From positions 1 to 51,489 of the forward strand of contig OMVX01000005.1 of NCBI GenBank assembly GCA_900314605.1: a stretch of 51,489 nucleotides of DNA. Reading direction: 5' to 3'. The notes beneath the pieces are model-generated. The model saw only the letters and a program-made list of their open reading frames with translations. It did no database searches and was not told the origin of the DNA. This document shows, piece after piece, positions 16,993 to 45,721 of the stretch. Source of the stretch: an uncultured Methanobrevibacter sp. (GTDB lineage Archaea; Methanobacteriota; Methanobacteria; Methanobacteriales; Methanobacteriaceae). Position 1 is the first letter of the stretch. Every line of letters begins with the position of its first letter. The position numbers and the translations under genes were made by a program.

Positions 16993-18366
16993 TTAGGTAC
17001 ACTTCTTTTTAAATCTATGAAGAAATATTTTAGTCCAAATAAAACCAAGTAATGAACCTAAGAAACAACCAAATATTAGACCTATAAATATTCCTTGAAC
17101 ACCCCATCCAAAGATTAAACCAAATATATATGCACATATAGATTCTAATAAAAGTGATTTTACTGAAATAAGAATAAAAGAATAACCTCCTTTACCAACA
17201 CCTTGGAAAAGGGAAGATGCCATTACTCCCGGAGTATAAGCTAAAACATATAAACTTAATAAAGACAGGGTTTGTGAAATTTGTGGTCTTAACATAGCAT
17301 TTGTAGAATTATAAGTAAATAAGGATGCTATTTGTGATGAAAATAAAAACATGATTATTGCAGTTAAAAGTGAAAATAGAAAACCTAATTTAATTGAATA
17401 AGAAAATGTAGTGTTTAAGTTTTCAGGATTCCGTGCACCATAAGCAACACCAGCAGCAGTTAAAATTGCTATTGATATACCATTTGCAGGCATAATGGCA
17501 TATATTAAAATCTGAAGAGAAGCAGAACACACTGCAAATGACATAGTACTGGAAACTTGTAAAACTAATGAATTTATAATAAAAAATAAAGCTGCAAGTA
17601 TTAAATTTTCTAAGATATAAGGAATAGCAACATTAAAAATATTTTTAATAAGTTGAGGCTTAAAGAAGAAATTTTTATATGTTAAATCCAGAAAAACAAC
17701 TCTTTTAACCCATATCCAATAAGAAAATATAATAGATGAAAATAAAACAGATAAGACTGTAGCCCATGCAGAACCTTTGATACCTAAATTTAATGTATAA
17801 ATAAATATCGGATCTAATATAAAATTTAAAACTGAACTCAAACATAATACAGATATTACCCTTTTAATATTACCTTCAGCTCTAAAAATTGCAGCTACAA
17901 CATTAGAATATGTAAATAAAATTAAAAAAGAAAATGCAATATAACTGAAATCTAATGCATAGTTTAAAGCCCCTCCTACATTTAAGAATATTAATAGTGG
18001 TTTGATAAAAATTAAAATAATAAATGTAAATATAATTGAAACTAAAATACATACTAATATAGCATGAATACCCGTGTTATTTGCTTGTTTATAATTTTCT
18101 GCACCAATATATCTTGAAATTACAGAGTTTGCACCAGCACCAATACCTGTTCCAAGTCCAATTAAAGTCATGAATAATGGAGTTATTAAACCTATAGCGG
18201 ATAATGCATTTGGTCCTAATCCAGACACCCATATACTATTTATTAGATTATAAAACATAGTTAAGGCTAAAGATAACATCATTGGGAAACTAATTTTCAA
18301 AATAGCCTTTTTTGGATCCCCGGTAATTCCTTCTATATTCTTGCTATTATTGTTATTATTTGTCAT
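16993..18366 (-). CDS. MATE family efflux transporter next to NRPS1
   Basis: Twelve membrane helices in 457 aa with MATE family features: GDPKKAILKISFPMMLSLAL at the N-terminus, INSIWVSGLGPNALSAIGLI, GIGAGANSVISRYIGAENYK and FRAEGNIKRV. The open frame reaches 18411, but the ATG at 18366 (MTNNNNNSKN) has AAGGAAT at ideal spacing and matches the start of the second MATE gene here, so I use it. It begins 73 bases after NRPS1 on the same strand and is likely co-transcribed. MATE proteins export organic cations and peptides by Na+ or H+ antiport, so export of the NRPS1 product or self-protection is a reasonable inference. Confidence 0.9.
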   Translation of the reverse strand: MTNNNNNSKNIEGITGDPKKAILKISFPMMLSLALTMFYNLINSIWVSGLGPNALSAIGLITPLFMTLIGLGTGIGAGANSVISRYIGAENYKQANNTGIHAILVCILVSIIFTFIILIFIKPLLIFLNVGGALNYALDFSYIAFSFLILFTYSNVVAAIFRAEGNIKRVISVLCLSSVLNFILDPIFIYTLNLGIKGSAWATVLSVLFSSIIFSYWIWVKRVVFLDLTYKNFFFKPQLIKNIFNVAIPYILENLILAALFFIINSLVLQVSSTMSFAVCSASLQILIYAIMPANGISIAILTAAGVAYGARNPENLNTTFSYSIKLGFLFSLLTAIIMFLFSSQIASLFTYNSTNAMLRPQISQTLSLLSLYVLAYTPGVMASSLFQGVGKGGYSFILISVKSLLLESICAYIFGLIFGWGVQGIFIGLIFGCFLGSLLGFIWTKIFLHRFKKKCT

Positions 18367-18438
18367 AATATTCCTTTTAATATTTAATTGTCTAAAATAA
18401 TAATCTTTCAATCATCTATCTATAATAATATTTAAAAA

Positions 18439-21400: not shown

Positions 21401-22848
21401 AGAATATTCTCACTAACACCATAAGATTTCAAAAAATCAATAATCACTGGCTTAGCTATATTTAAATCCGAAGAATAAGATCCTGGTTCATTATTATCCA
21501 CCTCAGTTAAAAGAGGATTAATATCATCAACTTCACTTAACATAGACTCAAAAAAAGATTCCGCATTAGAATATCGTGAATTTTTAATAATCTCATCATC
21601 ATAAACACGAGATTTAACAAAACCCTCATCAAATTTTAATTTTTTACCTTTTAATATATCAGATAAATGCTGTTTATAAACTAAACTAGAAAATCCGTCA
21701 AAAATCAAATGATGAAAAACACTAAGTAAAACTAAATCATCATCATTATCTTTTTCAACTAATAAAAAACGAGACAAATTATTATTTAAATCAAAAGATT
21801 TATTCATAAACTCGTAAATTTCATCTTCATCATATTCCTTTGAATAATCAACCTTAGGATTATCACCACTCTTCAAACAAGGAACACCATCAACAACACT
21901 AAGAAAAGATTTCAATAAAGGATGAACATTAAACATCTCATTTAAAGCTCTAAAAATATCATCGGCAGAATAAGTACTAGGAATATTAAGGGCAATAGGA
22001 ATATTATAAACTCCTTTTTTCTCATGTTTTAAAATATCAAGATAAACATTTAACTGAGACTCATTTAAAGGACAACCCTTATCCAAAGAATATTTACTAT
22101 AATCATAATCAATTAATGCATTATTTTTAATATGAGCTGCAATTTTTTCAGGAGTACCTAAAGAAATAAGATCATTCACAGATAAATTATAATCAACTAA
22201 TTCTTTAACAATTTTCATTGCAATAATAGAAGTACCACCTAAATCTATAAAATTATCATAAACACTAATATTTTCCTGATTAAAAACCTTTTCAAAGATA
22301 TTAACAACAATTTCTTCAAATTCATTCCTAGGTTTAACAAAATCAACAACATCCAACTCAACAGGAGGTAAACTCCAAACATCAATTTTACCATTAGGAT
22401 TTAAAGGCAGCATATCCATACGAACATAAAAAGAAGGAATCATATAAGAAGGTAAATGAATATTTAAATAGTCTTTAAGGTCATTCTCATCAATATCAAC
22501 ACTTGATGAATAATAAGCAATTAAATGATTTTGATGATTAACTTTACCTTTAACAACTTTTACCTGTGTAAAACCACCATAATCAAAAATAACAGATTCC
22601 ACACCTGCAGGTTCTATCCTGAAACCATTTAAATTAATCTGATTATCTTTCCGACCAACATAAACAATACTACCATCCTTATCAAAATAACCTAAATCAT
22701 TAGTAAAATAAGCCTTTTCATTATTAAATTTATAAAAAGATTTACCTGTTTGTTCAGGATTTTTAAAATATTGTTTAGTAACAACTGGCCCAGAAATAAC
22801 AATCTCACCAATAGCCCCCAAAGGTAATTGTTTTTTATTATCAGCCAA
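18439..22848 (-). CDS. NRPS1, 3' part: A1 C-terminal subdomain-T1-C-A2-T2-TE
   Basis: This 1469-codon frame begins at a TTG with no ribosome site, so it is the continuation of the gene starting at 24479 after a frame disruption. Order: A1 end with GRKDNQINLNGFRIEP (about 65-80) and PNGKID; carrier T1 with LGGTS (Ser207); condensation domain with HHLIFDG (379-385); A2 with LYTSGTTGIPKG (832-843), D879 in FDV, DSYGPTEAC, YRTGDM and NGKVDK; carrier T2 with LGGDS (Ser1216); thioesterase with GYSLG (Ser1340) and His1449 in DSTHQD. The frame thus supplies the second module and release domain of a two-monomer assembly line. The MATE gene follows 73 bases on. Whether full-length protein is made depends on the shift at 22849-22858. 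Confidence 0.92.
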   Translation of the reverse strand: MADNKKQLPLGAIGEIVISGPVVTKQYFKNPEQTGKSFYKFNNEKAYFTNDLGYFDKDGSIVYVGRKDNQINLNGFRIEPAGVESVIFDYGGFTQVKVVKGKVNHQNHLIAYYSSSVDIDENDLKDYLNIHLPSYMIPSFYVRMDMLPLNPNGKIDVWSLPPVELDVVDFVKPRNEFEEIVVNIFEKVFNQENISVYDNFIDLGGTSIIAMKIVKELVDYNLSVNDLISLGTPEKIAAHIKNNALIDYDYSKYSLDKGCPLNESQLNVYLDILKHEKKGVYNIPIALNIPSTYSADDIFRALNEMFNVHPLLKSFLSVVDGVPCLKSGDNPKVDYSKEYDEDEIYEFMNKSFDLNNNLSRFLLVEKDNDDDLVLLSVFHHLIFDGFSSLVYKQHLSDILKGKKLKFDEGFVKSRVYDDEIIKNSRYSNAESFFESMLSEVDDINPLLTEVDNNEPGSYSSDLNIAKPVIIDFLKSYGVSENILFTGVFAYTLSRFTGDNKVLFNILDNGRDNLSNYESFGMFVNTLPLVADCKNQSITSFMEYISDLVYGVSSYNFYPYRLLAKDYDIHADILFQFMPDGIIENDLSSDEDIFNDMKNQIIEPTEDFISDLDVEIFQNEDNYSLEIKYSDKYSKNFIEVFANTYQMILQDILSVDNLSDINYSRPSDLELLDTYNDTSHDLVNVDVLDAFNDILLRYPDNMLVSYKDCSYTYTAGAFIANKIALTLKSMGVKEQDKVAFLVERSELYIFSVLGVLSCGAVYVPLDDKHPDERIRFILDDTDAPVVIVSDETYKRAMDLTTDSVLFNISDILKEDINRLDKLPVEYGDLACVLYTSGTTGIPKGVKLTRKAILNLSEFYIRTYALSKDDVYGLFASIGFDVAIKCIFPSICSGAAVCVVPNDIKLNMKALNDYLLSHNVTHIELTTQVAKLFVSQVEETSLKVMTTGGEKLGDDEFNVNYRFADSYGPTEACVDVTAIDTKDKIDYSSIGFLLDNIKAYVLDEEFRRVPIGAVGELYLAGYQLARGYLNRDDETNHTFIDNPFDEGDYGILYRTGDMVRFLPDGSLGFVGRRDSQVKIRGNRVELSEIESVIREMECIEDVTVQIVRNGSNNELVAYFVSNMETNHSLEDHIKNYVLNNKPDYMVPSYVVKLDSIPLNVNGKVDKRALPKINFDALHEDYVPPSSDTEKAIVEVFEKIFNMDKIGINDDFVKLGGDSLTAIKVISLLDMDVDIKSILNLRTPYKIAQSIINDNEYGFNLIKEGTINQNMFLFPDIVGLSFVFSDFIEQIDFKGNIYTIDDFKHDLSLEEIKNLKDNNITIDYYYDAIKDLFQDGDIIVGYSLGCVYASLIAEKLEENKLVGEIILIDGYLDFNSTEKLSMDLIDEFLDNNTYSYEFKEKLKEIILLNSVYDFNTPKINSHITFLYTSDILEDDLKKISDNYEFIFIDSTHQDIISKDVSKYQNILSDNIN

Positions 22849-24479
22849 TATATATATACTTTAGAATTACCTAAAGGCTTACCAATAACAGAATAATCAG
22901 AAAAATCTTTACTCAATTCATGAATAATAACAGAACCAGATGTTTCAGTACAACCATAAGCATTCCACAGAACAGTAGAACGGTCAGCAGTAATTTCTGC
23001 TTTTGACAAATTAGAACCCGCAAAAATTAAATTATCCAAGTTCAAATCAAAATTATTATATAAATACAATCCTAATTCTTCTGTTGTAATTAAAACATAA
23101 GTATGATATGTCTTTAAATATTTTACAATATTAGAAATAGAACTTTTACTGGTTTCACGAATAATAAATGCTTCAAAACCATGCATAAGTGCAGCATAAA
23201 CAGGAAGAGAAGCAACAAAAGTAAACTTACCTAAACACATAAAATTACCAGTACCACCCTCTGGCAAATTAAAATAATTAATATAATTATTATTAATATT
23301 AATAATATTCCTTTGAGTTAACTCCACACCTTTAGGAACACCTGAAGTACCACTCGTATATAAAATAAGAGCAGTCTCATCCAAATCAATATCAACCTCA
23401 TTTAAATTACCATTTTCATTATTATTTATAGTATTTAAATGTATAGATTCAACATTATCAAAATCACAATCACACTCATGAATAATATATTTAGGAGAAC
23501 AATTACTAATAATAGTTTGAATATAACTTATAGGATAACTATCATCAACAGGAATAGTAATAGCACCAATTTTCATAAGACAAATAGTCAATAAAGGAAT
23601 ATGATATGATCTAGGTAGATATACGATAATTTTATCAGATTTACCTATTTTATAATCATTTTGGAGAATATATGATATGGATTTTATTAAATCAGATAAT
23701 TCAGCATAGGTGATTCTGTTTATTTCATCATTGATTGCAAAATTTTCCGGATATTTCTTAGCTGATTCAAGTATAATTTCAGGAATTTGTTTATCCTCTA
23801 CTATTAAATCAGTACCTATTGAAAATTCATTTAATAAATTTAATTGCCTATCACAGACAATATCCACTTGACTACATGATTGATTAATATTATTTAAACA
23901 ATTGCCCATCATCATTTCAATATTTTCAAGCATAGAATCAATTTCAATTTTACCAAAAGTATTAATATCATATACAATCTCAATAGATTCCTGAGATATA
24001 TTAAATACCATACTTGAATTAAAATTTTTAATATCTACATCTCTTGTTTGGTTAACTAGTGCATAATTAAAAATATAATCACAAGAATTTGGATATAAAT
24101 CATTAACATAATCATTTAGACTTTCCATAGAATTATCTAAAGCAGTGTCAATTGTATTTTTAACAGATTTAATAAAGTCAAAAATAGAAATTTTAGGTTT
24201 ATATTTAATTTTAAAAAGTGTATCATCAGAACTTAAATTACTGTAACAGAAAATAATACCCTCACTGTCTGTGATTCTTGATAAATAAATTGAGATAATA
24301 GCTGTAGAAAATTCAAAAAAAGAAATATTATTTTCAGTTAAAAAATTAGCTAAATCAACATTGTCCTTTAAATAATTATATTTTAAGGCATTAAAATTTT
24401 TTGAATCATTAATATCTTTTAAAAAACTATTAAAAGAATAAACATCCTTTAATTCATTCATCCAATACATCTTTTGCAA
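22692..24479 (-). CDS. NRPS1, 5' part: condensation C-lobe and A1 N-terminal subdomain
   Basis: Residues 1-210 form only the second lobe of a condensation domain, starting at its YW motif (KMYWMNELKD) and lacking HHxxxDG. A1 follows with ITYAELSDLI, LYTSGTSGVPKG (373-384) and NAYGCTETSG. After residue 543 (KVYI) the frame leaves NRPS homology because of a TA-repeat shift, and residues 544-595 are out of frame. The usual Asp that binds the substrate amino group is missing in KFTFVAS (418-424). The start is TTG at 24479: GGAGG lies 8 bases upstream, and the decayed copy at 45602 has an ATG at the matching place. Together with 18439-22848 this is a two-module NRPS. Confidence 0.88.
   Translation of the reverse strand: MQKMYWMNELKDVYSFNSFLKDINDSKNFNALKYNYLKDNVDLANFLTENNISFFEFSTAIISIYLSRITDSEGIIFCYSNLSSDDTLFKIKYKPKISIFDFIKSVKNTIDTALDNSMESLNDYVNDLYPNSCDYIFNYALVNQTRDVDIKNFNSSMVFNISQESIEIVYDINTFGKIEIDSMLENIEMMMGNCLNNINQSCSQVDIVCDRQLNLLNEFSIGTDLIVEDKQIPEIILESAKKYPENFAINDEINRITYAELSDLIKSISYILQNDYKIGKSDKIIVYLPRSYHIPLLTICLMKIGAITIPVDDSYPISYIQTIISNCSPKYIIHECDCDFDNVESIHLNTINNNENGNLNEVDIDLDETALILYTSGTSGVPKGVELTQRNIININNNYINYFNLPEGGTGNFMCLGKFTFVASLPVYAALMHGFEAFIIRETSKSSISNIVKYLKTYHTYVLITTEELGLYLYNNFDLNLDNLIFAGSNLSKAEITADRSTVLWNAYGCTETSGSVIIHELSKDFSDYSVIGKPLGNSKVYIYWLIIKNNYLWGLLVRLLFLGQLLLNNILKILNKQVNLFINLIMKRLILLMI
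22849..22858 (-). repeat. (TA)5 dinucleotide run at the NRPS1 frame break
   Basis: Five TA units lie exactly where NRPS1 changes frame. With four units the coding strand would read on as G-N-S-K-V-Y-I-L-A-D-N-K, joining both parts of A1 without loss. One extra TA unit therefore explains the break. Confidence 0.8.
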
Positions 24480-25708: not shown

Positions 25709-27073
25709 TTAATTTTTAAATTGCGCTTTTATTCTTCTGATTTCAAATCTTGCAAATGCGAAATTTATAACACTAGCAATTGATCTACCAAGACATAATC
25801 CAAGCCAGATACTTATTAAATGCCAATGAAATTCAAATACAAAAAGTTGGATTAAAGGAACAACAAAAATAATTTCTCTTAAAATTGTAAACATTAAGCT
25901 GTAAAAACCTTTTCCAATACCCTGATAGAAAAAACTTGATGGAATTCCCATACCCGTTAATATTAAACATGGGCAGACAAATCGAAGAAAAGTAGTAATG
26001 CCCGGAACTAATTGAGCAGTTTCTGGAGTATATGCAAAAATTGTAGCTAATTGAGGTGCAAAGACCACTAATATTAATGTAATTACAGTTCCTAAAGTTA
26101 AACCCAATTTAACACCATAAATGTGTGTTCTTGAAAGGTATTCGCCATTTTTTGCACCATATGCACTACCTGATACTGCAATAACAGCAGATCCTATTGC
26201 TGTTAAAGGCATTATTGCAAATAGGTATAATCTCTGACCTGTTGTGAACGTTGCTACTCCATAATCTCCTCCAACCATTGAAATAATAATCAAAATTATT
26301 GACATTGAAATTGCCATAATTAACATATCAAGTGAAGAAGGTATACCAACTTTAAGAATATCCTTTGATATTTTAGAATCAAATTTAAAGTTTTTAAGAT
26401 TAACATCAATATATGTATTCTTTTTAATTAAAATCCAGTATAAAATTACTATTGCAGAAACAGCAGAACTGACAACAGTTGCAAGTGATGCTCCAGCAGA
26501 ACCCAAATTAAAGGTATAAATAAATATTGGATCTAATAATGCATTTAAAATAACTGTAACAACTACAACATACATTGCACGTTTCATATCCCCTTCTCCA
26601 CGAAGGATTCCACTACAACCATTTCCAAACATTAAAGTGAATAATCCTAAAAACAATGGTGTAGAATAAGCTATAGCCTCATTTAATGTTTGACCAGAAG
26701 CACCATAACTTTCAAGTAATGGCCTTTGAATAAAAAAGAAGATAATGGTTAATATAATTGATGCACCTAAAAAAATAAACAATGCCTGTGTTGCTGATTT
26801 AGTAGCCATCTCACGATTTTTCGCTCCAATAAACCTTGAAATACTACTTGTCGCACCATTTCCAAGTCCAACACTTGCTCCTGTCAACACCATGAAAATA
26901 GGTGTTACAAAACCGATTCCCGCAATTGCAGTCTGTCCAAGTCCTGCAACCCAAATCCCATCAACAATATTGTATAATGCTGTTAGAATCATTGAAATCA
27001 TAATTGGTATAGCTAATGTCTTTACAGCCTTTTCAGGTTCTCCCCTCATTAACTCCACATTTTTGTTTGTCAT
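25709..27073 (-). CDS. MATE family efflux transporter (second copy)
   Basis: This 454-aa protein has twelve membrane helices and the same family marks as the MATE protein at 16993-18366: GEPEKAVKTLAIPIMISMIL, VDGIWVAGLGQTAIAGIGFV, GLGNGATSSISRFIGAKNRE and LRGEGDMKRA. The two are clear paralogues, about a third identical by eye. The ATG has GGAGAT in front. A remnant of a MarR-type regulator ends 19 bases upstream, the normal arrangement being MarR then MATE, so the transporter has probably lost its cognate repressor. Its substrate is unknown. Confidence 0.9.
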   Translation of the reverse strand: MTNKNVELMRGEPEKAVKTLAIPIMISMILTALYNIVDGIWVAGLGQTAIAGIGFVTPIFMVLTGASVGLGNGATSSISRFIGAKNREMATKSATQALFIFLGASIILTIIFFFIQRPLLESYGASGQTLNEAIAYSTPLFLGLFTLMFGNGCSGILRGEGDMKRAMYVVVVTVILNALLDPIFIYTFNLGSAGASLATVVSSAVSAIVILYWILIKKNTYIDVNLKNFKFDSKISKDILKVGIPSSLDMLIMAISMSIILIIISMVGGDYGVATFTTGQRLYLFAIMPLTAIGSAVIAVSGSAYGAKNGEYLSRTHIYGVKLGLTLGTVITLILVVFAPQLATIFAYTPETAQLVPGITTFLRFVCPCLILTGMGIPSSFFYQGIGKGFYSLMFTILREIIFVVPLIQLFVFEFHWHLISIWLGLCLGRSIASVINFAFARFEIRRIKAQFKN

Positions 27074-32170: not shown

Positions 32171-33655
32171 ATGAGTATGCTTAAAGAAAAATTCAAAGGA
32201 ACATATTTTATTTCTTTTATATCAATCACCACAGCAATCTGTGAATTCGGTATAAGTTCAATTTTTATTCTATTTCTCTTATATATATTGAATTTTTCAC
32301 ATCCATTAGCATCAGAAACTTATGCTTACTATTATGGGATTGCTTACTTATTTCCAATATTTATAGGATACCTATCTGATAAATATCTAACAAAAACCGG
32401 TGCTTTAACAATTGGATTTATTACAATGATAATAAGTCAATTAAGTTTAGCTTTTTCAGCATCATTATATGTTCCAAGTACTATCCAGTATGACCATTAT
32501 ATTTCTAATCTACAGAATCTAAGTTTTTTAATTGGACTATTTTGCCTTGCATTAGGTGTGAGTTTTACAAATATTTCAATTAGCCATATAATAAATAGTG
32601 TAAACAAGACGGAAAGATTAAAAATAGATGGATTATCTATTTATTACCCTATTTTAAATATTGGAGTAATAATTGGAGTAATCTTAATGAGTTTAATAAT
32701 AGGTGATAAAAATTATTATCTATACAAATGGGGTTTTCTAACCTTAGCATTTATATTAATAATAGGACTCATAATATTCAGATTATTAAAAAATAAATAC
32801 TTAGTTGATAATGATGGCAAACTAATGGAAGATAATAAGAAATATAAAAATCCTATAAAAAAAGAGTCCCTTAGAGTTTTAAGTAAAAAATCCTCAAAAA
32901 GCATCCAACAAATTAAAAATCTAAATTTAAAAGAAAAAGTAATACTTTATAAGCAAAGCCTAACAAAAGTTGAAAAAGATAAACTGGTAGTGTTTTTTAT
33001 ATTTTTAGTATTTATTATTATATACAGAATATCATACACTCAAACAACCACATCAATGATATTTTTCATAGACAATTATGTAGATAGGAATATAAGCTTT
33101 TTTAATATCCCTGTACAATTTTTCTCAATACTAAACCCTTTATTTGTTTTAATTTTAGGGCCAATATTCTTAAAAATTAATTATAAACTTGAAGAGAAAA
33201 AAATAGAATTTGGAATAGTAAAAAGAATAATATTAGCTTTAATTGTTTTAGCCATTGTATTTATGATATTATCAGGTATAGGATATTATATAGATATTGA
33301 TGCTGTAAGTAAAATAAATTTATTATGGATGCCTCTTATTGAAATTATTATAGCTATCTCTGAACTGTTATTTTCTATAGCAGGGTATTCTATGATTGGA
33401 GATTTAACCTATGAAAAATATTATTCATTATTTTTCGGATTGTTTATAGCAACAGGATCCATATCTAGATATATGTCTGGACTAATTGCAATAGAATTTC
33501 CAGTATATGATACTCCAAAATTTGTATATTCTATACCTATTGATGGAGTAATGGAATATTACTGTTTATTTGTATTTATGAATTTAGTTGCAGCAGCTGT
33601 TCTAATAATTTATAGAAAGAAAATAACAGAAAAAATGCATATTGATGAATCTTAA
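32171..33655 (+). CDS. MFS transporter, POT/PTR-like (peptide transporter family)
   Basis: This 494-aa protein has about 12-14 helices and features of the proton-dependent oligopeptide transporter branch: an N-terminal EFGISSIFILFLLYIL, YYYGIAYLFPIFIGYLSDKY in place of the usual loop 2-3 signature, and a long charged loop in the middle (about 215-270). There is no Shine-Dalgarno before ATG at 32171 and a TATA-like stretch lies close by, so the message may be nearly leaderless. It ends 47 bases from the stop of NRPS2, tail to tail. A role with the peptide product is possible by position only. Confidence 0.75.
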   Translation: MSMLKEKFKGTYFISFISITTAICEFGISSIFILFLLYILNFSHPLASETYAYYYGIAYLFPIFIGYLSDKYLTKTGALTIGFITMIISQLSLAFSASLYVPSTIQYDHYISNLQNLSFLIGLFCLALGVSFTNISISHIINSVNKTERLKIDGLSIYYPILNIGVIIGVILMSLIIGDKNYYLYKWGFLTLAFILIIGLIIFRLLKNKYLVDNDGKLMEDNKKYKNPIKKESLRVLSKKSSKSIQQIKNLNLKEKVILYKQSLTKVEKDKLVVFFIFLVFIIIYRISYTQTTTSMIFFIDNYVDRNISFFNIPVQFFSILNPLFVLILGPIFLKINYKLEEKKIEFGIVKRIILALIVLAIVFMILSGIGYYIDIDAVSKINLLWMPLIEIIIAISELLFSIAGYSMIGDLTYEKYYSLFFGLFIATGSISRYMSGLIAIEFPVYDTPKFVYSIPIDGVMEYYCLFVFMNLVAAAVLIIYRKKITEKMHIDES

Positions 33656-33702: not shown

Positions 33703-36700
33703 TCATACCATTATATCCTCTAAATATTCATTAATTAGCATCTGATTTAAAATTCTAGAGAATAATTTAACAAAAGAAATTGCTGTATCATTAGTAAACA
33801 TATCACCATGTTTTATATGAATAACATAACCATCATCCAAGTCATTGATTATACAGAAAAATTCACTGAAAACATCCTTTTCAATAAAAATATCCCTAAC
33901 TATCATCTTATCATAGATATTAGATACATCATTTAAATCAAAATTATACTCAAATAAAACATTATTATTTAAATTGAATTCTTCCCTCAGTAATCTATAG
34001 GGATAAACATGATTTGACATAGAATTAAAGACTAAATTAGAAAAATAACTTAAATAGTTTTTAATCTTATCATTTTTACAGTTAACTAAAATAGGAATTG
34101 TTAAAGCGTACATTCCAAGAGCATTTTGCATATAGGTTTCATGACGACCATGTTCAACAAAATTATAATAGATATTTGTCTTTCCAATAAAGCAAGCATA
34201 AGAATATGCAAATACAGCATTTAAAAAAGTACCAACAGTAATATTGTTATCAAAGGTGAATTTTTCAACTTTATTACGAATTTCTCTAATCGGAAGAGAT
34301 ACCATTCCCCGTGATCCATTCAAATCAGCTTCTATTGTATTAACATTATCAATTTCTTTAAATTGCATCTTATAAAATTCATGAGCTGATTTATAAAATG
34401 GTTCAAATTGACTTTCAAAAGAATCTTTACTTCCATAGACAAAGCCTAAATCAGGATTTTTATTTAATTTACCTTCTAATCCAGCAATCAAATCATTTTT
34501 AACTATGTTAAAACCCATTGCATCATTGATTATATGATGTATATCATAAAATACAAATTTACTATTATCTTTATCAATAATATAAAAACGAGCTAAATAC
34601 TTTTTCAAATCAAACTCTCGAATAAGATTAGAAAAATCATCATCATATCTTGTTTCAATTAAAGGATAACTATCACAAATTAAAAGAGGGAATAAACCAT
34701 CATCTAAAATACGCCCTTTTAAAATAGGATGTTTATCAATTAAAGTAAAAATAGCTTCCTTAATCTGATTAATAGATTTATCATTAGGACATTCTATTTT
34801 ATCCCATGTAGAATAAGCTGTACCTAAATCCTGATTAATTTCATTATAATATACTTCAAGTTGTGGTTGGGATAAATTACATATAATATTATTATCTTCA
34901 AAATAGAAATTAGCGATAAAATCTAATTCGAATCGAATATTATCAAAGAATAAACTTATCTCCTCACCAATAAATGTGTCCTGAGGATAATCTCCAATAA
35001 TATAATAAATATCATCTACACGATTTATATTAAAATCAACACCATAAACTTCTCTATTACCCTCATCATTAAGGTCAAAATCTTCATTAACAGATTTAAA
35101 TAATTCATTTTCAAAAATAAACTCTGTACTTAAAAAATTAAAAGTTACAGGACAATGTTTATATTTAAAATCATGGGTAAAATAGACTAAGGAGGAATAA
35201 TTTAAGCCAAAATTAGAAATATTTCTAAAAGCAGTTTTAAGGTTATAAACATCTCTCATAATAGAAATATCATCATACATAGTACTAATATTAACAAAAA
35301 CAGGATATTGACTTGTAAACCAACCAATAGTCCTATGAATACTAGCAATACTTTCATCACGACCGTAAGATTCACGATTGAATATAATATCTTTACCATA
35401 GGTTTTTTTATAAGCACGTGCAATTGCCAATGCCAAATATTCCTCTTCAGATAACATTAACAAATTATCAGTTCTATAATCTACATTCACATTAAAATTA
35501 AAGCTAATTGATTTTCCTTTAATTTTTAAATCATCTAATAATCCATTAATTTCAATCCAATGTTGTTTTTCATCTGGAGAAATATTTTCAACTAAATTTT
35601 TTACATCTTCAACCCAATTTTTATAAGAATAAGGTCTTATAAACTTTAGCTGATTAGACTGTCTAAAATTTGGATATATCATATTATTTTTAAGTTCATA
35701 TGTTTCATAATCTATATAATCCTCAGAATCTAAAGTTTTAATAATACTTTTTGAGTTTTGAGCAATTAAATATGGAGTTTTATAATTTAATATATCCGTA
35801 GCAGAACAAGAAATACCTTTTTTATTAAGCAGTGAAATTATTCGAATAGAGCTAATAGAATCTCCACCTAATTGAATAAAATCATCATTTAAACCAATGC
35901 CTTTTTGATTAAATACATATTCAAATACATTAATAATTTCCTTTTCAATATTATTTTCAGGAGCAACATAATCTTCACGGAAATTGGAAAGGTCAAGTAG
36001 AGGTAAAGCCTCTAGGTCAATCTTAGAATTAACTGTTAAAGGAATTTCATCTAGAAACATAACAAATGAAGGGACCATATAATTAGGTTTATGTTTTAAT
36101 ATATGATTTTTAATAGTTTCCTCATCCAAAGAGTCAGCAACCACATATGCAATGAGCTGAGCGTTATCTTTATTTCTTATACTCTGAACCGTAACATCCC
36201 TAACATGGTCAATTTGACGAATTGATGATTCTATTTCAGATAATTCTACCCGATTACCTCTAACTTTAATTTGACTGTCACAACGACCAATAATAGCTAA
36301 AGAACCATCAGATAATATTCTCATCATATCTCCAGTTCTATATAATTTACTATAATCAGGATCCTCATCAAATGGATTATCAATAAATGATTCTCCAGAT
36401 TCCTTTTCACGATTTAAATAAGCTTCAGCTACCTGATAACCTGCTAAATACAATTCACCTACTGCACCAATTGGAACTGGTCTAAATTCATTATCCAAAA
36501 TATATGCTTTAGTATTATAATTTAAAAACCCAACACTAGAGCTATCAATTTTATCATCATTAATAATAGAAGAATTAAAGGCAAATGCTTCAGTAGGACC
36601 ATATGCATCAACTAAAAGATAATCATCAGGACTTGAAAATTCTCCCAGTTTTTCACCTGCAACTAGTAAAATTTTAAGAGAAGTACTTTCTATACTTTTC

Positions 36701-39700
36701 ATAAATAATTTAGCTACCTGTGTAGTAATAAAGGAATGAGTAACATTGTGATTAATGAAAAAATCATTTAATTTAAGCATATTTAATTTAATACTTTTAG
36801 GAATTACGACTAAACATGCACCTGAATAAATTACAGCAGAAATTATAAAATTACTCATATCAAAACCTATAGAAGAAAACAATCCAAAAGTATCATCCTT
36901 GTTCAAATCATATTTATTAACATAGGTCGTGGATAGATTAAGTAATGCTTTTCTTCTTATCTTAACACCTTTAGGATGTCCTGTCGTACCACTAGTGTAA
37001 AGTATACATGCTAAATCATTATAAACAATTGGCAAATATTGTAATGTTTTAATATCTTCATTAAATATTTCAGATATATTGAAAATTTTACAATTATTAT
37101 TAAAGGTTTTAACACGCCTGTAAGTATCATCACTTACAATAATAACCTTGGATTCAGTGTCATTTAAAATAAATTCTAGTTGAGAGTCAGGATGGGCAGT
37201 ATCCAATGGAACATAAATAGCTCCAATAGATAAGATTGCTAAAATATTAAATAAGCATAATGGTGAAGGTTCAACTAAAAAAGCTACATTATCATTCTTT
37301 TCAATACCTAAATCAATTAAATATTTTGCTATTTTACGACTAATAAAAGCAACTTCCCCATTATTATATTGTTTATCATTAAAACTAACTAAGGTATTAT
37401 TAAGATATTTGGAAAGATTAAAATTAAATACATCTAAAATATCTTCATATTCTAAAATATAATCTGTATTATTAATTTTATTCAATAAATTCAAATCTTT
37501 AATAGATACATAATCTATATCAGCTAGATTCTCTTTAGTTAAGATTTCTGTTAAAATTTTAGCATATGCCTCAACAAATCGAATAGCAGTATTTCTAGAA
37601 TATTTCTCTGAATGATATAAATTAACAAGATAACCATCATCTAAATCATTTACAGTACATAAAATATCCGAAACTGGATCAATACTAAGTTCAGATATTA
37701 TAAGATCATCTTTAACATAAGAAGTATCATTTAAATTATAATTATACTCAAAAAGTATATTATTGTTTAAATTGAACTCAGATGCAAGTAATCTGAAAGG
37801 ATAAATACTGTTAATAACAGAATCAAAACTCAAATAGGAAAAATTTTTCAAATAATTTACTATATTATCATTTTGACAGTCTACCAAAAGAGGAATTGTT
37901 TTAGCAAACATTCCACAGGCATTTTGAAGATAATCCTCATGACGACCATGTTCAGTAAAGTTATAGTAAACATTATTACTTCCGGTAAAACGAGAGAGAG
38001 TATATGCAAATACAGCATTTAAAAAACTACCTACTGTAATTCCATGAGATTCTATAAAATCTTCAACCTCCTTTTTAACACCTTGAATAGGAAGTGAAAC
38101 AAACCCTTGAGTACCATCTATATCTCTTTCTAATGTATTTGCTTGTCCTATATCAGCTAATTTTTTAGAGTAAAACTCATGTGCAGAATTATACTTAGGA
38201 TTAAATTGAGATTTGTAAGAATGATAACTATCATTAACAAAAGCTAAATCCACTGTCTCATCTAAATTTCCATCTAAAGCAGCAATTAGATCTTTTTCAA
38301 TTAACTGCATACTAGTAGCATCAATAATAATATAATGAATATTAACAAATATGGCTTTTCTCTCATCTTTATTTATAATATAAAAATCTGTAAGTGACTC
38401 TTCCAAATCAAATTCTTTTATATAATTTTCAGTATCATCATTATGAATTACATTAATGTCTAAAGAAGCATCACATACTAAAAGAGGTGAAATTTCATTA
38501 TGAGTAATTCTTGCTTTTAGAATATGCCGTTTATTAATTACAGCCCATATTGCATTTTTAATCTCATCAACTGATTTATCCATATCACAGTCTATAATTC
38601 TTGAAACAGAATAAGCCGTACCTTTATTATTTGTTTTTTCATCTAAATATATTGCTAATTGAGATTCAGATAAAGGACAAACGATAGTTTTATCTGTGTA
38701 ATTTTCATAAACATTACTCTCTAGCCAAGCATCACCTTCTCCATTATTTTCATAAACATTTTTCCCTAGCCAATTATCATCTTCCATATTAAATTTAAAA
38801 TTATCAAGTAATCTAAAATTTTCAAAATAATTGTCATAGGATGTGGTGAAAAGGTTACTATTATACTCTGATTCTAATTGAGAGTATATATGACTTAAAT
38901 CATCTAAAAGAATCCCCCAACTTATACCATCAATTATTAGATGATGAATAATAAAAATAAGAAATGTTTTATCATTATGGTGAATTAAACTAATATCAAT
39001 TAATTTATTAAAAACATTAATCGAATTCTTTCTATCTTTAATAATTTCTTCCATATTATTTTTTAAATCATCTTTTATCTTAAATTCATTAATTTCAGAT
39101 ACTCGTGAATTTAATGGTAATATTTCTTGGACAGGTTTATTATTTTCTATTTTAAAGGATGCTCTTAACATATCATGAAGATTTGTTAATTCATCAAAAG
39201 ATTTCTGTAATAAATTAATATTCAAATCCTTTTTTGATTCTAAAATAAACTCCTGAGTATAATCATTTCTGTTAATTTGATCAAAAAAGTAGTTTTGTAT
39301 AGGAAGTAAATCAATAATACCCTTGATAGAATCATAAGTAACTTGAGGTTTCTTTTCAATATTTTGAGCAATTAAATATGGAGTTTTATAATTTAAAATA
39401 TCATTATATTGGACGAAAAATCCTTTATTTTGAAGAATTGAAATTATACGAATAGCTTTAATTGAATCTCCACCTAAATAATAAAAGTTATCGTTTATTC
39501 CAATTTTTTTCACATCTAAAACATTTTCCCATACTTTAACAATTGATTTTTCAATATCATTTGTAGGTGCAATATAGTTGTCATTGATGAATTCTGGTTC
39601 AGGTAATTTATTAATGTTAATTTTACCATTATTACTTAAGGGTATAGAATCTATCTGCATTATTGAAGTAGGAATCATAAATGGAAGTAAAATAGTTTCT

Positions 39701-42700
39701 AGATATTTAAATAATTCATCTATATCAATAATCTCTTCAGATACAAGATAGGAATATAATTGAGTTTTATTAGAATTAGGAATTGTTACAGCTTGAATAA
39801 TATTTCCATAGTTTTCAATTGCTTTATTTACCTCTTCAAGTTCAATTCTTTGACCATTAATTTTAATTTGTGAGTCTTTTCTTCCAATAAAGTTTAATTC
39901 ACCATCAAAATCAAGATATGCAAGGTCTCCAGTACAATAGATAATATCATTACCAAATAAATTATTAATAAAATGATGCTTAGTTTCATTTTTATCCAAA
40001 TAACCTGCTGATACTTGTTTTCCACCAATACACAATTCCCCTGGAATACCAATAGGACATAACTGTTTATCATTATTTAAAATATAGATATGTGTATTAA
40101 GATTAGGCTTTCCAATAGTAACCTTATTTGTAGAAGATATTTCTTTAATACTTGCAAAAATAGTAGTTTCACAAGGACCATATCCATTATAAATAATCGG
40201 ATTATATTTTTTACGAATATCTCGAACTAGATTTTCATTTAAAGCCTCACCTGCAAGGATTAATTGATATGTATTCTTCATTACATCATCAAAGTTTGGA
40301 AGAGTAAAAAACATATTTAATTTACTTGGAACCGTATTTATCATTGATTTTGAATACAAAATATCTTTAGGAATTTTACTAAAGTCATAATTTTCATTAA
40401 TAATATACAATTGTATACCATATACTATTGAATATATAATTTCAAATAATGAAGTATCAAATCCAATATTTGTTGTATGATAAAAGATTTTAGTATTAGT
40501 ATTATAAAACTTATTTTTAGCACTAATTAAAAATTTTTCAACATTTTTATGACTTATTATAACTCCTTTTGGAACTCCGGTAGTACCTGAAGTATGAAGT
40601 ATACACAGATTACCTTCACAAGTTGATTCTATTTTAGAATCATCATAATCATATAAGAGTTTTTGATTTAAATTAACAATATTAATATTATCTAAATCCA
40701 AATCCAAATTGGTTAATATGACCTTAGGGTTAGTCTGATTAACAATATGTTTAATCCTGTTTTTAGGAGCAAAAGGATTAATAGGAATATAAACCCCATT
40801 TAATTTCAAAATACTGTAAAATGCCAGTACAGATTCTATACTACGTTTAGCTATTACAATAATATTATCCTGTTTTTTAATATCAAAATTATCATGAAGA
40901 TAATTTGCTAAACTATTAGTTTTTAAATCAAATTCTGCATATCTTAAATCTGTTTTATCATCTGACAATATAACCTGTGTCGGATTTTTATCAATTTGAG
41001 TATTTAATTCACTTAATATTGAATTAGAATCAAAATCATCATTAGAACCTGACATTTTAATAATATTATCTTCTTCCAATGGAGATAAAATTTTAATATC
41101 CCTAATTTTTTTATTCATATTTTCTTCAATATTGTTAATTAAATAAATATAATGATTTAATAGATTATGGATTTTTTCAAAAGAATATAAATCTTGATTA
41201 TACTCAAATTCAATAATTAAATCAGAAGAACTATTTTTTACTGTACATGTTAAATCAAATTTTAACTCATCTACATCTAAACGATTATCAAAATCATTAG
41301 CTGTATTTTGTATAAATAGTATATTAAATAATGGATTATATGAGTTAGCTGTAGACAATTTATACTCATCAATAATCTGTTCAATAGAATAATCCTGATT
41401 TTCAAATATACCAGATAAAATTTCTTCAGTAATGATTAAATTTTCCTTTAAAGTCTTATCAACTAAAATATCCTGAATAAAGGGTAAAGTATTAACAAAC
41501 ATTCCTAAAGTTTCTTCTAAATTAGGATGAGTTCTTCCACTAGTCAAAGTTCCTATCTGAATAAAACTTTCATTAGTATATTTATGAAGTAAAACAACAA
41601 ATTGCAATAAAAGTAACTTATAAATTGTTGTATTATTCTCTTTAGCTACCTTTACTATAAGATTTTTATCTATATTAGAAGAAATTTTATTTCCATTAAA
41701 GCTTTGAATTAAAGGTCTTTTAAAATCAGCAAACAATTGACTTCCACTATCTGAAATATTCATATTCCTCCAAAAATCAGCCTGTTTAACTTGTTGCTTT
41801 TTAAGCCAAAAAACATAATCCTTATATTGAATTTCACTTGTAGAAATTGGTTTATTATTATATGAATCCTTAATTTTATCATACAACAGATCATTACTTA
41901 TCTGATCTCCAATAATATGATGCATATCTCTAAAAATATAGGTTTCACCTTTAAACTCAATAACTTTTATTCTAATTAAAGGTTCGGATTCTAAATTAAA
42001 AGGACGGATATTTTGACGGATTACTTCCTCTATATCATCTTTAACTTTTATTAAATCAAGTTTTATTCGGCGATTATTATGAATTTTCTGTATATATTCA
42101 CCATTTTCAATGTGAAAAGAAGTTCTAAGTATTTCTTCACAATCAATAACATGATTAATTGCTTTTTCAAGTCTTTTAACATTAATTGGCTTTTCTAATT
42201 TTATTAGATTTGGTAGATTATAATTAGTTAAATTAGGATATTGACAATAAATAACATATAATCTCTTTTGCTGGGAAGACATAGGATATTTATTAGAATC
42301 TGAAGGGACGATTTTTTTAATATCATCAATAGAAGACTTATTTTCCAGTGCATCTGATATTTCTCTGATTGTTGGATTGTTCATTAAATCTGTATGTTTT
42401 AATGAAATATTAAACTCATGAAAAATATAGGAATTTAATTTCATTAGTGTAATAGATGTAAAACCTAATTTGAATAAATTATCTGTAACACCAAAATAGT
42501 TCTGATTTAAGATTTTTGTACAAAAGCAATAAAGAGTTTTTTCTAAACTACTGTTTGGTTTTACATTTTCAATATCCATCTTCGGTTTAGGTAAGAGCTT
42601 TCTATCGATTTTACCATTAGGAGTTTGGGGAAATTCCTCTAATTGAATTAAAAATGTTGGAATCATAAAAGCAGATAGGGTACTTGAAAGATAATCTATT

Positions 42701-44589
42701 AAATCATCTATTTTAATATTAATTTGAGAGGTAAAATATGCACATAAATGTTTTTCATGATTTAATTCATAAACCGTTGCAATTGCATTTTCAATATTAG
42801 GAAATTTACTTATAACCTGTTCAATTTCTTCTAATTCTACTCTTTGCCCTCTTAATTTAATCTGATTATCTACTCTTCCTTTAATAATTATCTCATCTGA
42901 AGGTAATTGAACTGCATAATCTCCTGTTTTATAATATGGCACATCATTTATAGAGATAAAAGTCTTTTTTGTTTTATCCTCCATTTTATAATACCCTTTA
43001 CTAACACCAAGCCCACCAATATACAATTCTCCAATAACCCCATAGGGCAATAATTTTCCATCAATATCCCTAACATCTGTTATGTAATTTTTAAGAGGTT
43101 TACCATTAGTAATATAATCAGAATTAGTAATTTTTTTTGAATTAGACGTTAAACTAGTCTCTAATGGCCCGTAACCATTATAAATATCAATATCTGCATA
43201 TTTTTTAATAATATCATAAACATTTCCAGTAAATTTCTCACCACCACAACCAATACCCTTAAGATGTTTTATAGAATTAGCAAATTCCGGAACCTGTAAA
43301 TATGACAACAACCTTGAAGGAGTTAAATTAACAAATTCAGGTTTTGTCTTTTCAATTAAACAAGACAACAATAAAATATCCTCAATTTCATCATCATTTG
43401 CAAAAATCAACTCTTTACCACTTGTAAAACTAATTAAGATATCCTCTTCAGATATATCAAATGCAATAGATGTAATAGACAATAACTTTTCGTAATTATT
43501 TTTAATATGGGTTGCAGTTAAATTAGATATTCCACAATGTTTAGAAATAACTCCTTTTGGATTACCAGTAGAACCTGAAGTGTATAGTATAAAAATAGGA
43601 TCATCAGCCTTTAATTGAACATCTGGAAAAATCGGATCTCCTTCATTGATTAAATCATCAGGGTTGATTCCACCTTCAATAGATTCATATGTAATAATAA
43701 ATTTTGAATCACTATTTTGTTTAATATAATTTATTCTTTCAAGAGGATAATTCATATCTAAAGGTATTGCAACACAACCTGCTTTAATTATTCCTAAAAA
43801 ACTAGTGATTAATGTTTTATTACGTGGAAGCATAAATGAAACAGAATCCCCTTTTTTAAAACCTCTCTTTAATAATCCATTAGCAATATTATTTGATTCA
43901 TCATTAATTTGTTTAAATGTATAAGCTTCACCAGAAACTCTTAAAGCAATTTTATCAGGTGTTTTTATAGATTGAGCTTCCAATAATTCATTAACTAATG
44001 GATTTCTTAACAATTTAAATTCAGGAACTTTATTCTCACATCTAAGTAAAATGTTTTCGATTTTGAGTTTATCTATCCCTTTATTTATAAACTGATTTAT
44101 GACTTTTTTTATACTTCTTAAAAAAGAGTTAATATATGAATGAGTATATCTACTAGAGTCAAATTTTAATTTTAATATATACAACTGAGACTCTTCAAAA
44201 AGACTTAAACTTATGTTATAATCTTCTTTATCCTCACCCCCATTATAAATAAAATTAAAATAAGATTCCTTATTTTTTGATGAAACAGGATGAGATAAAT
44301 ACTCTTCAATAATTTTAATATAATCAATAACCGTTTCTTTTCTGTTATTCGAATTAAAAATTAATGGAATATTGTTAACATGAATAAAAATAGAAGTATT
44401 ATTAGTATACTTTGTTAAAGTTATGCATACAGCAGCTAAAAACAATAAATTATAATCCAAATCTTCTACACTACATAAACTATCAATTAAAGATTTTTTT
44501 ATAGATATACTGTCAAAAGATAGTTCTCCCATATCATTTTTATTTACCCTATTATATGGAAGAATAGTAGGTTCAAAATTTCTATTCAT
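33703..44589 (-). CDS. NRPS2: C-lobe-A1-T1-C1-A2-T2-E(N-lobe)-C2-A3-T3-E(C-lobe)-C3
   Basis: This 3628-aa non-ribosomal peptide synthetase has landmarks as follows. A condensation second lobe spans 1-205. A1 has LYTSGSTGNPKG (335-346), FDIS and NGYGPLETS. T1 has LGFTS (Ser712). C1 has MHHIIGDQ (889-896). A2 has LHTSGTTGVPKG and NGYGPCETT. T2 has LGGDS (Ser1709). An epimerisation N-lobe spans 1755-1935 with HHLIIDGISWGIL. C2 (1968-2390) has HYIIIDA, with Tyr for the catalytic His. A3 has LYTSGTTGHPKG and DAYGPTEAF. T3 has LGGDS (Ser2911). The epimerisation C-lobe (2985-3230) has YGRDES and RTIGWFTSQYPV. C3 (3235-3628) has HHIINDA, then stop. There is no thioesterase. The ATG lacks a ribosome site but has a TATA-like element about 30 bases upstream, suggesting a leaderless message. 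Confidence 0.93.
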   Translation of the reverse strand: MNRNFEPTILPYNRVNKNDMGELSFDSISIKKSLIDSLCSVEDLDYNLLFLAAVCITLTKYTNNTSIFIHVNNIPLIFNSNNRKETVIDYIKIIEEYLSHPVSSKNKESYFNFIYNGGEDKEDYNISLSLFEESQLYILKLKFDSSRYTHSYINSFLRSIKKVINQFINKGIDKLKIENILLRCENKVPEFKLLRNPLVNELLEAQSIKTPDKIALRVSGEAYTFKQINDESNNIANGLLKRGFKKGDSVSFMLPRNKTLITSFLGIIKAGCVAIPLDMNYPLERINYIKQNSDSKFIITYESIEGGINPDDLINEGDPIFPDVQLKADDPIFILYTSGSTGNPKGVISKHCGISNLTATHIKNNYEKLLSITSIAFDISEEDILISFTSGKELIFANDDEIEDILLLSCLIEKTKPEFVNLTPSRLLSYLQVPEFANSIKHLKGIGCGGEKFTGNVYDIIKKYADIDIYNGYGPLETSLTSNSKKITNSDYITNGKPLKNYITDVRDIDGKLLPYGVIGELYIGGLGVSKGYYKMEDKTKKTFISINDVPYYKTGDYAVQLPSDEIIIKGRVDNQIKLRGQRVELEEIEQVISKFPNIENAIATVYELNHEKHLCAYFTSQINIKIDDLIDYLSSTLSAFMIPTFLIQLEEFPQTPNGKIDRKLLPKPKMDIENVKPNSSLEKTLYCFCTKILNQNYFGVTDNLFKLGFTSITLMKLNSYIFHEFNISLKHTDLMNNPTIREISDALENKSSIDDIKKIVPSDSNKYPMSSQQKRLYVIYCQYPNLTNYNLPNLIKLEKPINVKRLEKAINHVIDCEEILRTSFHIENGEYIQKIHNNRRIKLDLIKVKDDIEEVIRQNIRPFNLESEPLIRIKVIEFKGETYIFRDMHHIIGDQISNDLLYDKIKDSYNNKPISTSEIQYKDYVFWLKKQQVKQADFWRNMNISDSGSQLFADFKRPLIQSFNGNKISSNIDKNLIVKVAKENNTTIYKLLLLQFVVLLHKYTNESFIQIGTLTSGRTHPNLEETLGMFVNTLPFIQDILVDKTLKENLIITEEILSGIFENQDYSIEQIIDEYKLSTANSYNPLFNILFIQNTANDFDNRLDVDELKFDLTCTVKNSSSDLIIEFEYNQDLYSFEKIHNLLNHYIYLINNIEENMNKKIRDIKILSPLEEDNIIKMSGSNDDFDSNSILSELNTQIDKNPTQVILSDDKTDLRYAEFDLKTNSLANYLHDNFDIKKQDNIIVIAKRSIESVLAFYSILKLNGVYIPINPFAPKNRIKHIVNQTNPKVILTNLDLDLDNINIVNLNQKLLYDYDDSKIESTCEGNLCILHTSGTTGVPKGVIISHKNVEKFLISAKNKFYNTNTKIFYHTTNIGFDTSLFEIIYSIVYGIQLYIINENYDFSKIPKDILYSKSMINTVPSKLNMFFTLPNFDDVMKNTYQLILAGEALNENLVRDIRKKYNPIIYNGYGPCETTIFASIKEISSTNKVTIGKPNLNTHIYILNNDKQLCPIGIPGELCIGGKQVSAGYLDKNETKHHFINNLFGNDIIYCTGDLAYLDFDGELNFIGRKDSQIKINGQRIELEEVNKAIENYGNIIQAVTIPNSNKTQLYSYLVSEEIIDIDELFKYLETILLPFMIPTSIMQIDSIPLSNNGKININKLPEPEFINDNYIAPTNDIEKSIVKVWENVLDVKKIGINDNFYYLGGDSIKAIRIISILQNKGFFVQYNDILNYKTPYLIAQNIEKKPQVTYDSIKGIIDLLPIQNYFFDQINRNDYTQEFILESKKDLNINLLQKSFDELTNLHDMLRASFKIENNKPVQEILPLNSRVSEINEFKIKDDLKNNMEEIIKDRKNSINVFNKLIDISLIHHNDKTFLIFIIHHLIIDGISWGILLDDLSHIYSQLESEYNSNLFTTSYDNYFENFRLLDNFKFNMEDDNWLGKNVYENNGEGDAWLESNVYENYTDKTIVCPLSESQLAIYLDEKTNNKGTAYSVSRIIDCDMDKSVDEIKNAIWAVINKRHILKARITHNEISPLLVCDASLDINVIHNDDTENYIKEFDLEESLTDFYIINKDERKAIFVNIHYIIIDATSMQLIEKDLIAALDGNLDETVDLAFVNDSYHSYKSQFNPKYNSAHEFYSKKLADIGQANTLERDIDGTQGFVSLPIQGVKKEVEDFIESHGITVGSFLNAVFAYTLSRFTGSNNVYYNFTEHGRHEDYLQNACGMFAKTIPLLVDCQNDNIVNYLKNFSYLSFDSVINSIYPFRLLASEFNLNNNILFEYNYNLNDTSYVKDDLIISELSIDPVSDILCTVNDLDDGYLVNLYHSEKYSRNTAIRFVEAYAKILTEILTKENLADIDYVSIKDLNLLNKINNTDYILEYEDILDVFNFNLSKYLNNTLVSFNDKQYNNGEVAFISRKIAKYLIDLGIEKNDNVAFLVEPSPLCLFNILAILSIGAIYVPLDTAHPDSQLEFILNDTESKVIIVSDDTYRRVKTFNNNCKIFNISEIFNEDIKTLQYLPIVYNDLACILYTSGTTGHPKGVKIRRKALLNLSTTYVNKYDLNKDDTFGLFSSIGFDMSNFIISAVIYSGACLVVIPKSIKLNMLKLNDFFINHNVTHSFITTQVAKLFMKSIESTSLKILLVAGEKLGEFSSPDDYLLVDAYGPTEAFAFNSSIINDDKIDSSSVGFLNYNTKAYILDNEFRPVPIGAVGELYLAGYQVAEAYLNREKESGESFIDNPFDEDPDYSKLYRTGDMMRILSDGSLAIIGRCDSQIKVRGNRVELSEIESSIRQIDHVRDVTVQSIRNKDNAQLIAYVVADSLDEETIKNHILKHKPNYMVPSFVMFLDEIPLTVNSKIDLEALPLLDLSNFREDYVAPENNIEKEIINVFEYVFNQKGIGLNDDFIQLGGDSISSIRIISLLNKKGISCSATDILNYKTPYLIAQNSKSIIKTLDSEDYIDYETYELKNNMIYPNFRQSNQLKFIRPYSYKNWVEDVKNLVENISPDEKQHWIEINGLLDDLKIKGKSISFNFNVNVDYRTDNLLMLSEEEYLALAIARAYKKTYGKDIIFNRESYGRDESIASIHRTIGWFTSQYPVFVNISTMYDDISIMRDVYNLKTAFRNISNFGLNYSSLVYFTHDFKYKHCPVTFNFLSTEFIFENELFKSVNEDFDLNDEGNREVYGVDFNINRVDDIYYIIGDYPQDTFIGEEISLFFDNIRFELDFIANFYFEDNNIICNLSQPQLEVYYNEINQDLGTAYSTWDKIECPNDKSINQIKEAIFTLIDKHPILKGRILDDGLFPLLICDSYPLIETRYDDDFSNLIREFDLKKYLARFYIIDKDNSKFVFYDIHHIINDAMGFNIVKNDLIAGLEGKLNKNPDLGFVYGSKDSFESQFEPFYKSAHEFYKMQFKEIDNVNTIEADLNGSRGMVSLPIREIRNKVEKFTFDNNITVGTFLNAVFAYSYACFIGKTNIYYNFVEHGRHETYMQNALGMYALTIPILVNCKNDKIKNYLSYFSNLVFNSMSNHVYPYRLLREEFNLNNNVLFEYNFDLNDVSNIYDKMIVRDIFIEKDVFSEFFCIINDLDDGYVIHIKHGDMFTNDTAISFVKLFSRILNQMLINEYLEDIMV
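35756..35790 (-). repeat. 35-bp direct repeat, copy in T3 of NRPS2
   Basis: This is the second copy of the repeat at 39362-39396. Identity continues past one mismatch for five more bases. It encodes the end of carrier domain T3. Confidence 0.85.
38701..38781 (-). repeat. Tandem 45-bp imperfect repeat inside NRPS2
   Basis: Two copies, starting at 38701 and 38746, encode the 15-residue units DNWLGKNVYENNGEG and DAWLESNVYENYTDK. They lie exactly at the border between the epimerisation N-lobe and condensation domain C2, so they look like a junction scar. Confidence 0.75.
39362..39396 (-). repeat. 35-bp direct repeat, copy in T2 of NRPS2
   Basis: This stretch is identical to 35756-35790 and encodes part of LNYKTPYLIAQN at the end of carrier domain T2. 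The copies are 3606 bases apart, an exact multiple of three. Confidence 0.85.
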
Positions 44590-44626: not shown

Positions 44627-44653
44627 TGATTTAGAATAGATGTTATACATCAA

Positions 44654-45602
44654 TTAATCTAAACAAATAACAGGAATAACAACAGCACCTAACCTCATCA
44701 AACAAACAGTCAATAAAGGAATATGATATGACCTAGGCAAATATAAAATGATTCTATCAGATTTACATATTTTATAATCATTTTGAAGGGTGTATGTTAT
44801 AGAATTTATTAAATCAGCTAATTCTTTATATGTAATCCTGTTTATTTCATCATTTATTGCAAAATTATCAGGAAATTTACGAGCCTTTTCAAATATAAAA
44901 TCAGGAATAGATTTATCACCTATCTTAAAATCAGAACCTTTAGAAAATTCATCCAATAACTTTAATTGCCTACTACAAACAATATCCACATCACCACAAA
45001 ACTGATTAATATCATTTAAACAATTATTTATAATGAATTCAATGTTTTCAAGCATAGCCTCTATTTCAAATCTACAAAACTATAATATCATACTCCACCT
45101 CAATAGAATCCTTAGATATCTTGAATATTAGACTTGAATTAATATTATTTTTAAGAGAGGTATCATTTGTTTGATTAACTATTGCATAATTAAAAATAGA
45201 ATTACAATAATCAGGATATAATTCATTAACATAACCTTTAAGATTTTCCATAGAATTATCCAAAGCAATATCCATTACATTTTTAACAGAATAATAAAAT
45301 CAAAAAAAAGAAAGATTATCATCATATTCAATCTTAAAAAGAGTATCATTAGGACGCAAATTACTGTAAGTGAAAATAATACCTTCACTACTACTGGTTC
45401 TTGATAAATACAATGATATAATACTTGTATAAAATTCAAAAAAAGAAACATTATTCTCAGATAAAAAATTCTCTAAATCCTCATAATCTTTTGAAAAATC
45501 AAAATCTACCTTATCAAAAATTTTAGAATGATTATTATCATTTAAAAAATTATTAAAAGAATAAATATCTTTTAATACATTCAACCAATACTCATTATAC
45601 AT
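44654..45602 (-). pseudogene. Decayed copy of the NRPS1 5' end (C-lobe and start of A domain)
   Basis: Three broken frames align end to end with NRPS1 residues 1 to about 311. 45602-45300 has YWLNVLKDIYSFNNFL against YWMNELKDVYSFNSFL. 45275-45072 has MENLKGYVNELYPDYCN. 45055-44654 has INRITYKELADLINSI and LYLPRSYHIPLLTVCLMRLG. A TGA interrupts at about 45300 and a frameshift at about 45068. Homology stops abruptly after VVIPV, 65 bases before NRPS2 begins. A GAGGGTG site before the ATG shows it was once a gene start. It is a truncated paralogue, either the remnant of another NRPS or a partial duplication of NRPS1. Confidence 0.85.
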
Positions 45603-45721
45603 AAAAAAAACACCCTCAAAAATTATAAAAGCAGAATTTTGTAGAAACCTTCATAATTTTTGGATGATGTGTTAAATAGGATTTCTACAAAACTAAAATC
45701 ATATAACTACTAAAATAATCA

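Follow-up and report, generated by a model that had tools for sequence, protein, structure and literature searches.

How does an epimerisation (E) domain come to lie in two pieces with a complete module between them, and could the pieces still act as one enzyme? Domains of the C superfamily (C, E, Cy) are two-lobed, and the lobes are regarded as one sequence unit. NRPS2, a 3,628-residue protein of a Methanobrevibacter-like archaeon, departs from this arrangement. It is encoded by a minus-strand open reading frame at positions 33703-44589 of the window, the whole stretch of 51,489 nucleotides analysed, which forms contig C31 in a draft genome of 103 contigs. Domain searches (33706..44589) give the order lone C-lobe, A1-T1-C1-A2-T2-E_N-C2-A3-T3-E_C-C3 and find no intact E domain anywhere in the 3,628 residues. 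All NRPS2 features below lie on the minus strand.

The separation of the two E lobes, E_N and E_C, by a complete C2-A3-T3 is confirmed. Pfam Condensation matches in full at 37525-38679, a whole C domain, and in part on either side of it, with profile positions 3-181 at 38818-39321 and 265-420 at 34954-35409. Against a profile of intact archaeal E domains (412 positions), E_N (residues 1757 to about 1945; 38755..39321) covers positions 1-182 with 216 bits and E_C (residues about 2971 to 3225; 34915..35679) covers 140-411 with 381 bits, and on gramicidin S synthetase 1 (5ISW) the two occupy neighbouring halves of a single E domain, chain residues 84-242 and 253-432. Among solved structures, both halves match E domains above C domains (E_N 4e-24, E_C 1e-12; the best E-domain targets are bacitracin synthase 3 or gramicidin S synthase 1), and the intact E domains of relatives are about 50-58% identical to them. 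The sequence-only reading of this DNA, that NRPS2 holds two E-domain lobes, each once, around a complete C-A-T module, is borne out by these searches. E_N carries the catalytic motif HHLIIDG (residues 1882-1888; 38926..38946), the HHxxxDG of E domains, which is retained in 9/9 split copies. E_C carries E3073 in NRESYGRDES (35371..35373), which aligns with the Glu that E domains conserve in EGHGRE and is kept in the split copies, as well as RTIGWFTSQYPV, which contains the GWFTSxYPV motif. The lobes are not contiguous; about 1,030 residues, holding C2-A3-T3, intervene.

The setting of the lobes is likewise that of E domains. The carrier domains T2 (residues 1672-1745; 39355..39576) and T3 (residues 2874-2947; 35749..35970) both have the GGDSI motif, in these genomes the mark of carriers preceding E, and T3 groups with such carriers. 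The condensation domains C2 (residues 1966-2395; 37405..38694) and C3 (residues 3232-3628; 33706..34896), the latter terminal and with its HHIINDA intact, both fall within the post-E clade of C domains (support 1.0). Downstream of C3 there is no thioesterase. NCBIfam yielded no E-specific model; contiguity apart, each feature tested identifies the split domain, by sequence, as an E domain.

The halves overlap, since the SYxxW helix that connects the lobes occurs in both, as TTSYDNYF at the end of E_N and as SYKNWVE at the start of E_C. Ahead of the E_C copy stands IYPNFRQSNQLKFI, which matches the end of an N-lobe significantly: when the 14 residues preceding the helix were shuffled, 999 of 1000 trials scored lower and 1 in 1000 reached the score, making this stretch very likely a genuine remnant of the last N-lobe helix. 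The match of the E_N tail is weaker, its score being reached by 14 to 60 of 1000 shuffles, and the tail is clearer in the eight other split orthologues described below (SYESWLEDVRN). A further candidate, EDYIDYETYEL before IYPNF as a remnant of the HH-bearing strand, is unsupported, as shuffles score equally. NWLGKNVYEN and AWLESNVYEN form a short tandem repeat in the linker between E_N and C2 (about 38690-38760).

When the E-domain profile was run against 139 genomes of the family, eight from another genus proved to have this split too (G156, G119, G111, G144, G154, G141, G147 and G138), with breakpoints identical in 9/9 split copies. G111 is a single contig; the copies of G156, G119 and G111 are nearly identical, that of G147 is cut by a contig end, and that of G138 is interrupted within C2 and lies in two open reading frames. 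In these eight orthologues A3 is missing and C2-T3 alone stands between the lobes. One further orthologue, in G120, is unsplit and reads A1-T1-C1-A2-T2-E2-C2-A3-T3-E3-C3, with both E2 and E3 whole. The comparison of orthologues for which the sequence-only reading had called thus supplied eight split copies and an unsplit one. Named records carrying the same gene belong to uncultured Methanobrevibacter, including rumen and goat-ileum genomes. The same comparison disposes of an assembly chimera or collapsed repeat, which would have undone the earlier proposal and might be suspected in one contig of a 103-contig draft, NRPS genes being repetitive. The junctions, however, are identical in eight other genomes, one of them a single contig, and the NRPS2 reading frame is open across 10.9 kb. 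Because the split is shared by nine genomes, we reject this explanation, to which we attach practically no probability.

The orthologues also bear on how the split arose. In a rooted tree of A2-T2, G120 is outermost, the window is next, and the eight others follow (support 94 and 90). Trees of the separate lobes place E_N with E2 and E_C with E3. Approximately unbiased (AU) tests rejected a forced grouping of E_N with E3 (p-AU 0.0013) and of E_C with E2 (p-AU 0.030, a value only moderately low, the clade of E_C with the E3 of G120 having modest support, 59). The unsplit orthologue, the GGDSI carriers and the post-E type of the C domains that follow agree with the lobe trees. Since E_N descends from E2 and E_C from E3, and since orthologue, carrier types and C-domain types concur, we conclude from these comparisons that E2 has lost its C-lobe and E3 its N-lobe, a complementary loss from two ancestral E domains. 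One loss event or two may have been involved, both being compatible with the data.

The sequence-only reading had instead proposed that a module was inserted at, or recombined into, the lobe boundary of one E domain. Such an event would yield the same final domain order and would fit breakpoints that lie at the lobe boundary. It is contradicted by the unsplit orthologue, which has two E domains rather than one, by the grouping of the halves with different E domains in the lobe trees and AU tests, by the GGDSI and post-E types, and by the N-lobe remnant that leads E_C. Moreover, each half has its own copy of the connecting helix and the two copies differ, which a clean insertion into one domain would not produce. 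We therefore reject nested insertion as very improbable. The same reading had named as its own refutation a better alignment of the halves to separate full-length domains; in terms of history this holds, the halves belonging to E2 and to E3.

With complementary loss as the origin, three stages can be read in living genomes: two intact E domains in G120, complementary lobe loss in the window, and the additional loss of A3 in the eight others, both separated lobes having stayed under strong selection. Other parts of the line are less well preserved. The C2 of the window reads HYIIIDA for HHxxxDG (residues 2085-2091), a Tyr (codon 38332-38334) replacing the second catalytic His, whereas all other orthologues read HH; condensation by this C2 is consequently doubtful. 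The window's A3 (residues 2400-2865; 35995..37392) retains its core motifs as judged by eye, and since A3 is absent from the eight other split orthologues, their T3 would need to be loaded by A2 or in trans. A shortened form of 2,403 residues (L089, L090 and L091, of G156, G119 and G111) has lost A1, T1 and the C1 N-lobe, so that two successive lone C-lobes precede A2; a transposase-like open reading frame lies upstream of it in G111. To judge from these losses, the assembly line is shrinking, with both E lobes retained.

The surroundings of NRPS2 contain several other features. Convergent with it is a gene for a POT/MFS transporter (32171..33655, plus strand), a candidate exporter, which also adjoins the orthologous loci, including that of G120, at 51-60% identity. 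Directly upstream (about 44650-45700, minus strand) lies a degraded NRPS start, its C-lobe and A-domain fragments spread over two frames and broken by stops. A second synthetase gene, NRPS1 (18439-24479, minus strand), is broken into two open reading frames (22692-24479 and 18439-22848) by a frameshift at about 22.7-22.85 kb, within an A domain, explained either by gene decay or by an error in the sequencing. The C-terminus of NRPS1 is thioesterase-like (GYSLGC), and two MatE-family efflux proteins (16996-18411 and 25712-27073, minus strand) flank it. A relative (G051:C1, L048/L049) has a single uninterrupted frame for an NRPS of 10,816 residues, in which a T-E-C unit occurs three times in nearly identical form.

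Do the lobes still work? The sequence-only reading framed the choice as one between reassembly around the nested module and loss of epimerisation, and we accept that framing. Among split orthologues, dN/dS is 0.12-0.26 for E_N and 0.10-0.22 for E_C, compared with 0.15-0.23 for A2 and 0.13-0.21 for C3, in pairs with dS of about 0.3-0.6; the ratios are less reliable for pairs that include the window or G154, where dS is larger. These values indicate purifying selection on E_N and E_C as strong as that acting on the domains around them. Positions that never vary among 17 intact E domains number 23 in E_N and 55 in E_C; the split copies conserve 99% and 98% of them, respectively, a retention no lower than among intact E domains themselves, and the motifs HHLI[IV]DG, NRESYGRD and GWFTS are all kept.

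An internal control is provided by the N-terminal lone C-lobe of a C-type domain (residues 1-185; 44035..44589), which is present in orthologues and is conserved but has lost its active-site motif. Its sequence marks it as an example of a lobe kept for structure only, and E_C, with its motif retained, is unlike it. This comparison bears on the alternative that both E lobes are leftovers kept as a structural scaffold, for example by packing on T2/C2 and T3/C3, with epimerisation lost. Lone lobes without motifs do persist in this family, both as the N-terminal C-lobe and as the C-lobe that is all G156, G119 and G111 keep of C1, and a C2 without its catalytic His together with the loss of A3 elsewhere would suit a line that is being pared down. 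A scaffold, however, does not account for catalytic motifs and invariant positions retained as well as in intact E domains when the N-terminal lone lobe did lose its motif, and C2 and C3 are of the post-E type, which fits a D-configured donor. On balance we regard the scaffold explanation as unlikely.

Because both lobes are strongly conserved in nine genomes, they probably reassemble, the conserved halves coming together as one working enzyme. We think it likely that, after complementary lobe loss, the N-lobe of E2 and the C-lobe of E3 form one hybrid epimerase. As the comparison shows, an ancestor with the order A1-T1-C1-A2-T2-E2-C2-A3-T3-E3-C3 lost the E2 C-lobe and the E3 N-lobe, which left one complementary pair. 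In the mechanism we propose, the E2 N-lobe, with HHLIIDG, would dock in the folded protein with the E3 C-lobe, which bears the catalytic-type Glu and GWFTSQYPV, and C2-(A3)-T3, or C2-T3 in the eight other split orthologues, would be looped out between them. A single active site would then form at the E_N/E_C interface, as in an ordinary E domain, and would act on the aminoacyl or peptidyl group of T2, T3 or both before C2 or C3 accepts it. We lean towards the view that this is a natural split enzyme, in which the E2 and E3 lobes reassemble across the nested C-(A)-T and one hybrid epimerase serves two carriers.

The structure prediction that the sequence-only reading had suggested, made on E_N-C2-T3-E_C of the G111 orthologue with AlphaFold2, gave folded lobes (pLDDT 73.6, from 31 alignment rows) but a pTM of 0.42. 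With 8 alignment rows the pLDDT was 40.6, and larger alignments were discarded because MAFFT placed E domains on C2. Foldseek matches were dominated by C domains and module structures and did not separate an assembled E domain from the middle C domain. Other observations count against docking. The duplicated SYxxW leaves one connecting helix too many in a docked pair, the Tyr in the window's C2 suggests that part of the line may be decaying, and non-catalytic lone lobes such as the N-terminal C-lobe persist in this family. The conservation and dN/dS evidence would be fitted equally by complementation between two polypeptides, E_N of one chain pairing with E_C of another. Most NRPSs act as monomers, however, and these data hold no sign of a dimer, so that we judge two-chain pairing highly unlikely and favour reassembly within one chain.

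If the lobes reassemble, contiguity in sequence would be dispensable for an E domain, and complementary deletion could shorten assembly lines with epimerisation retained. Domain-calling software would miss such epimerases, and the lobe boundary would be a naturally tested engineering site. The finding also bears on the little-known peptides of rumen methanogens. The first report of an archaeal NRPS, from Methanobrevibacter ruminantium (PMC2812497), does not use the term epimerization domain, and our searches of open-access papers found neither 'split epimerization' nor an E domain with separated lobes.

The E domains of gramicidin S synthetase 1 (5ISW) and tyrocidine synthetase A (2XHG) resemble the pair described here in their adjoining alignment, in HHxxxDG, the EGHGRE Glu and RTxGWFTSxYPV, and in the GGDSI carrier before and the post-E C domain after; in NRPS2, by contrast, the lobes are non-contiguous, trace back to two ancestral E domains, and have C-A-T or C-T between them. 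The X domains are catalytically inactive C-type domains (PMC8949500), members of the C superfamily retained without their original catalysis and thus a model for the scaffold explanation, but their HHxxxDG is altered whereas the E_N of NRPS2 keeps the motif. PchE, in which an epimerase is inserted in an A domain to give an interrupted adenylation domain (PMC8807600), is likewise a single chain in which the two parts of a catalytic domain stand on either side of another domain; there, however, a tailoring domain lies within an A domain, while NRPS2 shows complementary lobe loss with a whole module between the parts. Finally, the XUC exchange units, engineered fusions between the donor and acceptor subdomains of C domains (PMC11546977), demonstrate that C-superfamily lobes of different parents are combinable. 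In that case the lobes are joined directly by design, whereas in NRPS2 the hybrid would be a natural one, assembled in space from lobes about 1,030 residues apart.
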